Both the position numbers and the translations under genes were made by a program. The notes under the pieces were generated by a model. That model had not been told where the DNA came from, searched no databases, and saw only the letters and a list, made by a program, of their open reading frames with translations. From NCBI RefSeq assembly GCF_031598375.1, contig NZ_CP123872.1:124001-188000 (forward strand): a stretch of DNA of 64,000 nt. Reading direction: 5' to 3'. Of the stretch, positions 5,422 to 10,158 are shown one piece after another. Source of the DNA: Temperatibacter marinus (GTDB lineage: Bacteria > Pseudomonadota > Alphaproteobacteria > Sphingomonadales > Kordiimonadaceae). The first letter of the stretch is position 1, and the number at the start of each line of letters is the position of its first letter.

Positions 5422-5808
5422 ATGGCTGTTGATAAGAATATGCCGGTTTTGATTGTCGATGATTACAAGACAATGCTTAGAATTGTACGCAACCTTCTCA
5501 AACAATTGGGTTTCAATAATGTCGATGAAGCGACAGATGGTGCTCAGGCTTTAGAAAAGGCGCGAGGTAAATCATATGGTCTAATCATTTCTGATTGGAA
5601 CATGGAGCCTATGACTGGATATGAACTTTTAAAAGAAGTTCGTGCAGACTCAGTTCTTAAGGACACTCCATTTATTATGGTAACTGCAGAATCAAAAACG
5701 GATAACGTAATTGCAGCGAAGAAAGCTGGCGTAAATAACTATATCGTTAAGCCATTTAACGCTGCGACGCTGCAAACGAAACTTGCTGCGGTCCTTGGGG
5801 ATTTCTAA
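5422..5808 (+). CDS. cheY: Chemotaxis response regulator CheY
   Basis: Single-domain receiver of 128 residues. The acidic pocket is Asp13-Asp14, the phospho-acceptor Asp58 lies in I-I-S-D-W-N-M-E-P, and the switch residues Thr88, Tyr107 and Lys110 are all in place. S-D-W-N-M-x-P-M-x-G is typical of true CheY proteins that bind the flagellar switch protein FliM. The next gene encodes its phosphatase CheZ, starting one base after the cheY stop, so the two are co-expressed. No kinase, receptor or flagellar structural gene lies within the window, so the rest of the chemotaxis system is elsewhere. Confidence 0.93.
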   Translation: MAVDKNMPVLIVDDYKTMLRIVRNLLKQLGFNNVDEATDGAQALEKARGKSYGLIISDWNMEPMTGYELLKEVRADSVLKDTPFIMVTAESKTDNVIAAKKAGVNNYIVKPFNAATLQTKLAAVLGDF

Positions 5809-5809
5809 T

Positions 5810-6832
5810 ATGAACTCGGATGATCTTCCGAAACAGATAGAATTGCTTGTCGATAATCTGCGCAAAGAGAAAGGCTCTTCACAGCTTTCTCTTGCAGATA
5901 TGGCATCCGTAACTGAAATACTGATAGCTACAATGCAAGCCTTTTTCCGCAATGTCGATACGTCAATTTATCGAGAATGCAGGGCTCTATCTGATTACAT
6001 TTCTAATGCAAGAAATGAGATTGCTGCACTCCAACCTGGTGATTTGGAGGATACTCAAATCCCTCGCGCTGGAATGGAGTTGGACGCTATTGTTCAGGCC
6101 ACTGAAGAAGCAACCAATACGATCATGCAATCTGCTGAAGACATCATGGGCGCAGACCCAAGCGATATGGATGCCTATCAGGCGACTGTCAATGATTCAG
6201 TCATGAATATTTTTGAGGCCTGTTCGTTCCAAGACATTACTGGACAACGCATTTCTAAAGTCGTTCATACCCTCTCGCACATTGAAAGCCGCATCCTTGA
6301 TCTAAAAGATCTACTCGGTGTGACGGACGACGATATCGTAAAAGCTCAAGGAGAAGACACTCGCTCAGAAGAAGAAAAACTTCTCTCCGGTCCCGCACTT
6401 GACGGTGAAGGTATTGATCAAACAGCTGTGGACGATCTTATGGGAACTGGCACACCTGCTGCGGCCCCTGCTGCAGAAGTTGCACCAGAACCAGAGCCAG
6501 AGCCAGAGTCAAAACCAGAGCCAGAGTCAAAACCAGAGCCAGAGTCAAAACCAGAGCCAGAACCTGCTCCTAAGCCAAAACCTAAAGCTGCGGCCAAACC
6601 CAAGCCAAAGGCAAAAGCCAAACCAAAGGTGGAAGCTCCGAAACCAGTTAATCCAAAAGTCTTGGATAACATGTTTGAGGAAGATTTTGATCCTATTGCC
6701 GAGCTTGAAGCCAAAGAAAAAACTAAAGAAGCTGCTCAAGAAGATGATAAGTCTGATGACGAACAGATGGATGATCTCAAGAAAAAAGGCGCCGATGTCA
6801 GTCAAGATGATATTGATGCCCTCTTTGGATAA
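5810..6832 (+). CDS. cheZ: CheY-P phosphatase CheZ with a long repetitive C-terminal tether
   Basis: A 340-residue protein. The four-helix-bundle CheZ domain spans about 1-172, with the catalytic segment Q-D-I-T-G-Q at 141-146 (Asp142, Gln146; compare Asp143 and Gln147 of E. coli CheZ). E. coli CheZ is about 214 residues, so this one is much longer. After the bundle come a peptide I-D-Q-T-A-V-D-D-L-M-G (202-212) resembling the E. coli CheZ tail that binds CheY, a Pro/Glu/Lys linker (about 225-280), an acidic segment, and the terminal S-Q-D-D-I-D-A-L-F-G, which resembles the CheY-binding N-terminus of FliM. The start is ATG 5810 with GGGGAT upstream. Confidence 0.88.
   Translation: MNSDDLPKQIELLVDNLRKEKGSSQLSLADMASVTEILIATMQAFFRNVDTSIYRECRALSDYISNARNEIAALQPGDLEDTQIPRAGMELDAIVQATEEATNTIMQSAEDIMGADPSDMDAYQATVNDSVMNIFEACSFQDITGQRISKVVHTLSHIESRILDLKDLLGVTDDDIVKAQGEDTRSEEEKLLSGPALDGEGIDQTAVDDLMGTGTPAAAPAAEVAPEPEPEPESKPEPESKPEPESKPEPEPAPKPKPKAAAKPKPKAKAKPKVEAPKPVNPKVLDNMFEEDFDPIAELEAKEKTKEAAQEDDKSDDEQMDDLKKKGADVSQDDIDALFG
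6497..6550 (+). repeat. Three perfect 18-bp tandem repeats within cheZ
   Basis: The 18-base unit CCAGAGCCAGAGTCAAAA occurs three times without a mismatch (6497-6514, 6515-6532, 6533-6550), with a partial fourth from 6551. Each unit is six codons (P-E-P-E-S-K), so copy-number change keeps the frame and would only lengthen or shorten the linker between the CheZ domain and its C-terminal peptide. Confidence 0.95.
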
Positions 6833-6851
6833 CGAAACATTATTGAGTAAG

Positions 6852-6878
6852 AAGCCAGCATTTCTGCTGGCTTTTTTT
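6852..6878 (+). terminator. Intrinsic terminator after cheYZ
   Basis: A perfect 9-bp stem (AAGCCAGCA / TGCTGGCTT) with a TTTC loop is followed by a run of T. It lies 20 bases after the cheZ stop and closes the cheY-cheZ transcript. Confidence 0.93.
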
Positions 6879-7730: not shown

Positions 7731-8581
7731 AACCTTAAATGAGCCATTAAAGCTGTAGGAAAAACATCGTCCGCCGGCAATCCTTGGATTGCTGGCCAGT
7801 GAACTCTTTCTGCCATCGCTGAAAAGCTTTTTCTATGAATACCCGTTGTTATGAGAAGGCTTTTATGGCCTAAACGTTGTGCACCTGCGATGTCTGTTAA
7901 CAAACTATCCCCGATAACCAAGACTTCATGCGGAAGAATCTGTTCCTCCATGCCTGCTAATTTGGCACAGTCTTGAAAGGCCCCTTCACTAGGTTTGCCA
8001 AACCACAAAGTTTCACCGCCTTGACCTTCATAAACCTCAGCAATTGAGCCAGCACAGAGCCATAGTTTATGGCCAAAGTGCACGACCCGGTCAGGATTGG
8101 CACAAAGGAAGGGAACCTTGTTTCTTAAAGCAATTTCCAGAGTGGCATCATGGGCTTCTACTGTAGAGTGATCAAGGCCAGAAGCAAAGATCAAATCAGC
8201 CTTCTGGATGTCCTCTGTCACTGTGACGGGCAGCCCTTCGACAGCTTGATGGTCCATAGAAGGCCCCATATGGTAAAGGCTTTTCCCTTGATAATGTTCG
8301 CGCACATAGGCTCTTGCCTGGGCGCCGCTCGACATAATGTTATCTTGAAGAGCAATCGGTAAGCCCTTGTCATTCAGTTGTTCCCTAATAAGAGAGGCTG
8401 GTTTTGGCGCGTTGGTCAAAAAGACTGTTTCAATTGCTTCCCTTCGCACCCCTTCTATGGCAGCAACAGCTTCTGGGAAAAGCTCTACGCCGTTATGCAT
8501 AACCCCCCAAAGATCACAGATCACAAGTTTAATACCCTCAAGGTTTGGCTTGAGATGATCCCAGACAGGTACATAGGCCAT
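7727..8581 (-). CDS. HAD-superfamily class IIA hydrolase (TIGR01459-like, NagD relative)
   Basis: A 284-residue HAD phosphatase. Motif I, D-L-W-G-V-M-H-N-G, is at 23-31: Asp23 is the nucleophile and the usual second Asp is replaced by Trp-Gly, which is typical of the TIGR01459 subgroup. Motif II is V-F-L-T-N-A-P near 53-59 and motif IV G-D-S-L-L-T-D-I-A-G-A near 223-233. The class IIA cap lies between motifs II and III. The substrate is unknown; relatives act on sugar or nucleotide phosphates. Its ATG overlaps the stop codon of the upstream EAL gene by one base, so the two are translationally coupled. Confidence 0.88.
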   Translation of the reverse strand: MAYVPVWDHLKPNLEGIKLVICDLWGVMHNGVELFPEAVAAIEGVRREAIETVFLTNAPKPASLIREQLNDKGLPIALQDNIMSSGAQARAYVREHYQGKSLYHMGPSMDHQAVEGLPVTVTEDIQKADLIFASGLDHSTVEAHDATLEIALRNKVPFLCANPDRVVHFGHKLWLCAGSIAEVYEGQGGETLWFGKPSEGAFQDCAKLAGMEEQILPHEVLVIGDSLLTDIAGAQRLGHKSLLITTGIHRKSFSAMAERVHWPAIQGLPADDVFPTALMAHLRF

Positions 8582-10158
8582 TATAAATAATCGTCCATTT
8601 CTGAGGCTGCGACAGGTTCAGAGAATAAATAGCCTTGTGCAAATTCAACGTTATTATCAAGAGCATGAAGCACCATAGCTTCCCGTTCGACACGAGATGC
8701 AATCAAGGCAATGTTATTTCGTCGCAAATAGGTCACATATTCCGACAAGTCATTTTCAGAAAATTCTGTCTCAAGAATTTTACTGTCAATTTTTATATAA
8801 CGGACAAATTTCTGCTGTAGATCTTTAATATCAAGATCTACTGTATTTACTTGATCTAAAGAAAAGCCAAACCCTTTGCGGCCCATAGACGCCATCATAG
8901 AGAGAACATCATCCGGAAGCGCTTCGTAATCTTCTTTTGAAAGTTCAAAGACTAATCGATGGCTGAATTCTTCATTCATCGTCATATAATCAACAAATTG
9001 CGGGAAGAACTCTTTATCTTGAAGGGAAGATAGAGATAGATTGGTAAAAAATTTGAGATTTTGTTTTCTTTTACCCATCTTTCGAATGAGCTGAATAAGT
9101 CTGAACAGAAGCAAATTATCTAATGTTCCAGAAAGTCCAGCACTGTCTGCTAATTTTATATAGTGTCGAGGTAATATAATATTACCTTCTTCATCCCTGA
9201 CACGAGAAAAACACTCAAAGAATGTTGCTTTGCGAGAAGGAAGCCCCACAATAGGCTGCAAGTATAAATCAACACGATTTTCACTCAGACCGCTGCGCAT
9301 AACATCAAGCAGCTGGCTTTCTTTCTTAATAAGGCGGATTTTACGCTTTTTATAGCTTCTCTTTGCTCGTCCTTCGCCCTTTCCTGCGCCCTGGCCATCC
9401 TTATGATCAATCACGGCATCAAGAGCCCCTGAAGCTGTTGGCGCATCTCGTATATCGCCGCGCCCCCCTGAGAGTTCATCATCAAAAATTTCACTTTCTG
9501 AAAGTTCGATGATCTCTTCCTCTTCATCCTCAATTTCAGGTTGAGCATCTGGTAGATCTGCAATATTTACAACCTCCGGTGCCGTCTTAGAATCTTTATG
9601 ATTCACTGCCAAGTTAGCTGCGGCAACAGGATCAATCTCCTTACTTCCGCGCGCAGACTGTGTCGTTCCAACCTCAGCACTCGCTGTCGCCGACCCGTCC
9701 TGGGCTGCCCCCTCAGAGCGCATATTTTCAGGCTTTTTCGGGAGGGCACCGGGTTTAGCTGCTGATTTTGCAGCACCTTTAGATGGGTTTTTAGAAAGTT
9801 GTTTTTCCTTCTTAACGAATTGCACAAGCAACGTTTGCAGCATTTTCAACTCTTCAACCATTTTAGAGCTGTCACCGTCGCCGCTTTTCTCAATCAACTC
9901 ATCAATTTTTGCTTCGAATTTAAACTGATTAAATTCAATCGCTTCAACTTTGGCGTCCAGCGCCTTTTTCTCTCTGTGTGAGAGATAAATGCGCGTTCCT
10001 TGGGATAGCCCCACATAGAAAACAAAACCTAAGCCAAGGGCCGCATTTGAAGAAAGCCCCATATAGGTTGGACCAGCCAAAACAACTGCAAAGGCGATTA
10101 TCACATAGGAAAAAAACAATCCAACTTGAAGAAATACTGACATAAATAGACTTTTCAC
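8581..10158 (-). CDS. TipF-like membrane protein with a degenerate EAL domain
   Basis: A 525-residue protein. Two membrane helices lie at about 9-27 and 36-54, a coiled-coil region at 58-115, a low-complexity acidic linker at 120-280, and an EAL domain from about 283 to the end. The EAL signature is E-C-F, and the D-D-F-G metal loop reads L-D-Q-V, losing the second Asp. Q-G-Y near the C-terminus is kept. Active phosphodiesterase function is therefore unlikely and c-di-GMP binding plausible. The layout matches Caulobacter TipF, a c-di-GMP receptor for flagellar assembly, and cheYZ is 2 kb away. I rate TipF identity as probable, not proven. Confidence 0.72.
   Translation of the reverse strand: MKSLFMSVFLQVGLFFSYVIIAFAVVLAGPTYMGLSSNAALGLGFVFYVGLSQGTRIYLSHREKKALDAKVEAIEFNQFKFEAKIDELIEKSGDGDSSKMVEELKMLQTLLVQFVKKEKQLSKNPSKGAAKSAAKPGALPKKPENMRSEGAAQDGSATASAEVGTTQSARGSKEIDPVAAANLAVNHKDSKTAPEVVNIADLPDAQPEIEDEEEEIIELSESEIFDDELSGGRGDIRDAPTASGALDAVIDHKDGQGAGKGEGRAKRSYKKRKIRLIKKESQLLDVMRSGLSENRVDLYLQPIVGLPSRKATFFECFSRVRDEEGNIILPRHYIKLADSAGLSGTLDNLLLFRLIQLIRKMGKRKQNLKFFTNLSLSSLQDKEFFPQFVDYMTMNEEFSHRLVFELSKEDYEALPDDVLSMMASMGRKGFGFSLDQVNTVDLDIKDLQQKFVRYIKIDSKILETEFSENDLSEYVTYLRRNNIALIASRVEREAMVLHALDNNVEFAQGYLFSEPVAASEMDDYL

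Follow-up and report, generated by a model that had tools for sequence, protein, structure and literature searches.

The window, by which we mean the whole 64,000-nucleotide stretch of Temperatibacter marinus DNA analysed here, carries a cheY gene on its forward strand (5422-5808, 128 residues) and, directly 3' of it on the same strand, a gene for a long form of CheZ (5810-6832, 340 residues; hereafter CheZ-L), the stop codon of cheY lying one base before the cheZ ATG. This ATG at 5810 agrees with the N-termini of the orthologues; the list of open reading frames has a TTG further 5'. The cheY product scored 162.7 bits against the NCBIfam CheY model, under its cut-off of 189, and matched CheY in the PDB at 2.8e-43. 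The pairing of the two genes recurs, a CheY-like open reading frame being found upstream of cheZ and on its strand in 30/30 order-level loci (L003-L032). Downstream of cheZ, a hairpin with a T run (6849-6876, +) forms a weak terminator-like site; the region scanned has three such sites, where shuffles average 1.5. Also near cheY and cheZ, on the reverse strand (8581-10158), lies a gene whose 525-residue product combines an EAL domain (6.5e-34) with a hydrophobic N-terminus and an acidic central part, a layout that we take to resemble that of the flagellar polarity factor TipF.

CheZ is a helical hairpin that dimerises to a four-helix bundle and bears the catalytic residues, D142 and Q146 in CheZ-L. 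In the putative hairpin of CheZ-L (residues 28-169; 5891-6316, +), AlphaFold2 predicted long helices at 28-73, 85-114 and 120-169, with a mean pLDDT of only 70.9 for the protein. The last of these helices contains the phosphatase motif D142-x-x-x-Q146 (6233-6247, +), in an FQDITGQ stretch that is invariant, both residues included, across the 36 aligned orthologues. DXXXQ is the active motif of CheZ (PMC7750401). The Pfam CheZ profile (PF04344) matched residues 120-211 to its positions 107-198 of 203 with 42.4 bits, above the cut-off of 30.7. The NCBIfam equivalog model for CheZ (PRK11166.1) gave 38.3 bits, below its curated cut-off of 257; since this is an enteric-type model, we place CheZ-L among the CheZs, outside that subgroup. 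In the Foldseek search of the PDB, E. coli CheZ (1kmi_Z) appeared at rank 38 (E 0.63) and no entry matched at E <= 0.001; a second fold comparison returned generic helical bundles (best Z 9.1), with 1kmi absent from the 50 matches listed. Judged by its sequence, CheZ-L is a CheZ phosphatase of predicted activity.

The original prediction had singled out two peptides behind this core, and translation of 5810-6832 (+) confirmed its coordinates, D142/Q146, the internal IDQTAVDDLMG at residues 202-212 and the SQDDIDALFG with which the protein ends (331-340). The internal peptide, peptide 1 below, occupies residues 190-212 with its lead (6377-6445, +; core Q204-M211 at 6419-6442). Its resemblance to the tail of E. 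coli CheZ, also part of the prediction, held up: phmmer aligned residues 120-211 with E. coli CheZ through the C-terminal VDDLL (E 0.00099), and the profile and pairwise alignments pair LLSGPALDGEGIDQTAVDDLM of CheZ-L with LLNGPQVDTS...QDQVDDLL of E. coli. Because these alignments run through the internal peptide, it is this one, and not the C-terminal one, that is by position the homologue of the E. coli tail. The 128 residues beyond residue 212 are, on the same alignments, an addition to CheZ.

The addition begins with a tether of Pro, Glu, Lys and Ala (residues 213-278; 6446-6643, +), in which positions 6497-6561 form 3.6 copies of an 18-base unit with 100% matches, an array that could vary in length through slippage. 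It is followed by a middle element, VNPKVLDNMFEEDFDPI (residues 280-296; 6647-6697, +), an acidic and lysine-containing spacer (residues 298-328; 6701-6793, +) and the C-terminal peptide DVSQDDIDALFG (residues 329-340; 6794-6829, +; core Q332-F339 at 6803-6826). AlphaFold2 placed short helices at 204-211, 282-290 and 332-339, which are the three elements, in a tail that is otherwise mostly unstructured. The middle element contains LDNMF (285-289) and lacks the Q of the peptide motif; we read it as a divergent third copy, since the canonical third copies of two orthologues (L024 and L034) align at this place. The prediction had counted two elements only, and the third at 280-296 is conserved as well. 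It had described the join between the two peptides as about 55 residues of Pro, Glu and Lys plus an acidic segment; the stretch between the cores is 119 residues long (212-330) and includes the third element.

To count peptides we used a strict motif, [QN]xx[IV]Dx[LMIF][LMFI], a short expression of our own choosing that sets what is counted. We searched 41 genomes, the own genome and 40 relatives, and found CheZ-L in 37/41 (own included) by reading of the rows; a raw tally of 39 had also taken in one short CheZ and one tether-only match. Thirty-six orthologues were readable and one (L039) is cut by a contig break. Aligning these relatives, the check proposed for the prediction, showed both peptides to be conserved, with at least two strict copies in 35/36 readable orthologues. 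One orthologue (L028, in genome G029) stops 11 residues past peptide 1, an instance in nature of the extension being lost. Among 24 members of the window's family, mean pairwise identity was 0.82 in the hairpin, 0.78 in peptide 1, 0.35 in the tether (213-275), 0.71 in the middle element (279-297), 0.25 in the acidic spacer (298-326) and 0.96 at the C-terminus; the corresponding values in 12 members of other families were 0.64, 0.71, 0.10, 0.09, 0.08 and 0.57. The tether varies freely in length and composition. A middle element of the LDxMF type is present in 23/24 family members (the exception is L018) and absent from several other families, so that, with an identity of 0.09 elsewhere, it belongs to the family of the window; three members of other families (L024, L034 and L035) have a canonical third copy.

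The addition is not confined to these relatives. Across our CheZ set, 62/156 rows have at least 12 residues beyond the first match to the motif, and a further match was found in 59/62 of them, against 0.01 expected from shuffled tails, the 59 coming from related rows and so not amounting to 59 independent events. CheZ was found in 104/241 genomes of the class (core alignment). Among 87 class-level CheZs, the strict motif occurs once in 61, twice in 23, three times in one, four times in one and not at all in one, and outside the class 38 of 41 readable CheZs have one copy, three have none and 0/41 have a second; the class-level rows are the best-scoring matches listed and the phylum-level set consists of 30 best-scoring and 20 hand-chosen rows, so these frequencies are not population estimates. 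In total, 60 CheZs from 18 family groups have at least two copies. On a tree of the core, the multi-peptide CheZs of the sampled class fall in two separate clades, of 56 rows (with the window) and 13 rows, and the label changes 10 times, whereas 50 shuffles never gave fewer than 42 changes; this is a quick LG+G4 tree with the tails left out, many open forks and two long-branch warnings, on which gain and loss are not separable. Both kinds of CheZ, multi-peptide and single-peptide, occur together in 38/110 genomes of the set.

The highest copy number, four, is that of L222 (G080:C1:1469900-1471900), two of whose copies sit in near-identical tandem units, SSQSDIDNMFDSPAP and SSQSDIDSMFDSPAP, with proline-rich spacers; the CheZ of L136 has three. 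These two proteins give the impression that selection acts on the peptide as a unit. L142 was counted as single-peptide because its first peptide is degenerate (QSEADALM), although two are visible by eye, and the last copy of L214 (ADTIDAIF) is likewise missed by the strict pattern. The counts exclude L039, whose gene a contig break truncates, L070 and L215, in which the active-motif pattern gave no match, L154, which shows two copies but whose frame runs off its stretch, L002, L074, L083 and L133 (repeats of the own genes) and L089, together with L284, L285, L287 and L291 from outside the class and L300 from within it, which the pattern could not read.

The first and last copies differ in a regular way, as the prediction of two different peptides on a long low-complexity tether would have it. 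Position 8 of the motif is F in 60/60 last copies and in 5/60 first copies, and position 4 is I in 57/60 last copies and V in 47/60 first copies; over all last copies, Q is present in 59/60, I/V in 60/60, D in 60/60 and L/M in 59/60. The prediction had also likened the C-terminal peptide to the N-terminus of FliM; our data do not bear out a special mimicry of FliM. In 18/95 single-peptide CheZs the one peptide that matches is of the F-ending form, or in 16 if L142 (degenerate first copy) and L150 (non-terminal peptide) are set aside; this form is therefore a CheZ tail in its own right for which the label "FliM-like" is not needed. The same motif is also repeated in 3/4 multi-peptide rows with a canonical middle copy. 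F-ending copies stand at all four places in L222 and at the second and third in L136. That the two forms keep a fixed order suggests, from sequence, unequal roles for them: one may collect tightly and the other release easily, or their partners may differ.

Both forms have the residues expected at the contacts with CheY. In E. coli, Q8, I11, D12 and L14 of FliM contact V108, I95/A99/Y106 and K119 of CheY (PMC3774744, Table 3); these four FliM residues have their counterparts in Q, I/V, D and L/M of the motif, which are filled by Q204/V207/D208/L210 in peptide 1 and by Q332/I335/D336/L338 in the C-terminal peptide. EIDALL is described as the CheY-binding motif of FliM and FliY (PMC9126983), and in Caulobacter a putative CheY-binding motif of FliM is internal too and was mutated as ID57WA (PMC7534056). 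On the side of CheY, eight E. coli residues are listed as key to the binding of FliM (PMC8225110); when aligned, the window CheY keeps Y106, V108 and K119, has I95V, and differs by A90S, K92T, A99K and K122A. CheZ and FliM bind one and the same face of CheY (PMC3774744), so that competition with the motor, which the prediction proposed for such a CheZ, is to be expected of any CheZ.

In the usual picture, each chain of the CheZ dimer has a single peptide that docks CheY-P. Our preferred reading, to which we give a probability of about 0.6, is that CheZ-L is a CheZ phosphatase in which the CheY-P-docking peptide has been multiplied on a multivalent tail. The ancestral docking peptide (Q204-M211) would be retained at about its E. 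coli distance from the hairpin and work as it does in E. coli, and the disordered tail would then add LDNMF as a diverged second copy and, at the C-terminus, a third copy of canonical, F-ending form. On binding, the copies would each become a short helix lying on the alpha4-beta5-alpha5 face of CheY-P, which is also the face used by FliM. Several CheY-P could be held together in this way, or one could be passed from copy to copy, close to the active sites, and the outcome would be avid capture and stronger competition against the single FliM peptide. CheZ-L might thus hold two CheY-P molecules at once, as originally proposed; the first observation was correct, and its interpretation is partly supported. 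The reading draws on the homology by position of peptide 1 with the E. coli tail, the presence, order and conservation of the copies, their recurrence in two clades, the match with the FliM contact residues, the neighbouring cheY, the F-ending form as sole tail of some CheZs and the three predicted helices; from these, binding, folding on binding, avidity and the dephosphorylation of CheY-P on the distal copies are inferred.

A Gaussian-chain estimate at 40 angstrom, which depends on an assumed distance and stiffness, gives a local concentration of 1.4-1.9 mM at 34 residues versus 0.2-1.0 mM at 162 residues, a loss of about 1.6- to 7-fold, so that an active site could still be within reach of CheY-P docked on the last copy, which might be dephosphorylated there. 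Several points count against the docking tail: the four changed CheY residues (A90S, K92T, A99K, K122A), the natural loss in L028 of the extension beyond peptide 1, a middle element that has no Q and is missing in L018 and several other families, the shortness of the self-chosen motif, and the regular way in which last copies differ from first ones, which could mean different partners.

The difference between the two forms is also what one alternative builds on. Here the forms would differ in their affinity for CheY-P, and the tail would act as a relay, in which a tight distal site collects CheY-P and a looser proximal one hands it over to catalysis, rather than by simple avidity. The order V then I at position 4, and M/L then F at position 8, is conserved and stays unchanged while the spacers between copies range from 1 to 169 residues, as a relay would have it; affinity, however, is not readable from sequence, and the F-ending form at all four places of L222 and at two of L136 speaks against it. 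We regard the relay as a tenable but tentative alternative, with odds somewhat below even.

The same peptide occurs elsewhere in the genome. A scan for QxD/E-IDxL gave 15 matches, against one for the reversed control, and by reading of the frames four of the 15 lie in tails or termini: those of CheZ-L, of a second and shorter CheZ (CheZ-S), of FliM and of an unnamed 184-residue protein that ends in SQADIDALFD (C1:2831284-2831835; L087:976-1527, +). CheZ-S (C1:2016294-2016791, 213 residues) has a single C-terminal peptide, with the tail SQADIDALLASFD, and lies, at a distance of about 2 kb, behind the genome's one FliM match, not adjoining cheY. This FliM (L073; Pfam match C1:2014015-2014590) bears VLDQTEIDSLLGF behind an acidic, repeated N-terminal extension. 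The extension has a duplicated AAEWEAMAGDD unit ahead of the CheY peptide, and similar units are seen in L303 and L304.

The unnamed protein adjoins a glutamine synthetase-like gene, a glnA-like peptide being found in 26/30 such loci. AlphaFold2 gave it a confident helical body (pLDDT 88.9); Foldseek found no PDB match at E <= 0.001, and there were otherwise only generic four-helix bundles (best Z 8.2). Pfam, NCBIfam and PHROGs returned no credible family, only weak rows at chance level. The motif DYxNxxN in its first long helix is present in 28/28 aligned members, whose selection pattern contained most of the motif, and in 9/9 members read by place alone, also where the tail is gone. Homologues occur in 37/41 genomes, and the four that lack one (G026, G028, G034 and G040) are those without CheZ-L. 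Over the class, the protein is present in 49/241 genomes, of which 45/49 have CheZ (p = 2e-15) and 43/49 a FliM match (p = 1.4e-6), both values ignoring kinship; a tie to multi-peptide rather than single-peptide CheZ was not significant (14/21 vs 21/51 genomes, p = 0.07).

We read 76 loci of this protein, one of them open at a contig end. The strict tail peptide is present in 65 of the remaining 75; in six it is degenerate, L117 and L244 are broken or out of frame, and two have no peptide. Three of the 65 have two copies (L225, L226 and L246), echoing the duplication in CheZ. The two peptide-less loci, L307 (G097) and L308 (G175), are from genomes without a CheZ or FliM match, and G110, which has FliM and no CheZ match, keeps the peptide. 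Four further genomes that carry the protein have CheZ and no FliM match (G075, G135, G145 and G216); three keep the peptide and in G216 it is degenerate, which speaks against a simple rule. In G029, where CheZ-L has lost its extension, the unnamed protein (L128) keeps its peptide.

These distributions raise a broader idea, that the docking peptide is a shared currency of CheY-P, which FliM, the two CheZs and the unnamed protein would partition among themselves by competing multivalent tails. The near-invariant DYxNxxN, together with the loss of the tail in the two genomes without CheZ and FliM, would then point to the unnamed protein as a novel regulator that binds CheY-P and may be a further phosphatase. 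We consider the idea speculative and rather doubtful.

A second alternative to the docking tail gives the C-terminal peptide a partner of its own, such as a different receiver domain, a paralogue of CheY or a hub at the pole or the motor, and has it place or license the enzyme while peptide 1 alone feeds it with CheY-P. The F in all last and few first copies shows that one position cannot stand in for the other, further stand-alone receivers are encoded in the genome (the nearest are 36% and 40% identical to the window CheY), the unrelated four-helix protein carries the same F-ending C-terminus, and an alphaproteobacterial CheZ is polar without a known CheA-binding motif (PMC7750401). Against this stand the 16-18/95 single-peptide CheZs in which the F-ending form is the sole tail and should have to serve CheY-P, and we find a separate partner unlikely. 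The view that the extra copies are redundant, nearly neutral leftovers of slippage in a repetitive tail is highly improbable: it accounts for a tether of perfect 18-base repeats that changes freely in length and composition and for the loss in L028, but not for a C-terminus at 0.96 identity beside spacers at 0.25-0.35, nor for second copies in 59/62 long tails versus 0.01 in shuffles.

In the literature searched we did not find a multi-peptide CheZ, which is weak evidence of novelty as coverage was partial, with most subscription papers outside it. The conserved and recurrent multiplication of the peptide makes the CheZs a natural series of one, two, three and four copies, set 1 to 169 residues apart; by altering the tail alone, one could probe avidity, cooperativity and the contest with the motor. 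The series also bears on the division of labour in cells with two CheZs, and through the common peptide one arrives at an unnamed family of proteins linked to CheZ and the flagellum.

Compared with known systems, CheZ-L shares with E. coli CheZ (PF04344; 1kmi_Z) the FQDxTGQ stretch, a predicted helical hairpin, the linker and a QxxVDDL(L/M) at the equivalent place. In contrast to E. coli CheZ, which stops at this peptide, it adds 128 residues with two more elements, and it lacks a polar-localisation motif of the DDWF type, having no tryptophan at all. Its paralogue CheZ-S has the fold family and active motif in common with it, but is shorter and has one peptide. Alphaproteobacterial CheZs have been aligned and described with one C-terminal helix (PMC7750401); that of Azorhizobium caulinodans resembles CheZ-L in its DXXXQ and in having no CheA-binding motif, and differs in its 236 residues and single C-terminal helix, a second peptide going unmentioned in the available part of that paper. 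With the EIDALL peptide of FliM, finally, CheZ-L shares the consensus Qxx(I/V)Dx(L/M), whereas the active D/Q motif is a feature of CheZ, and the peptide that lies near the N-terminus of the switch protein lies in CheZ-L at the C-terminus of a phosphatase.
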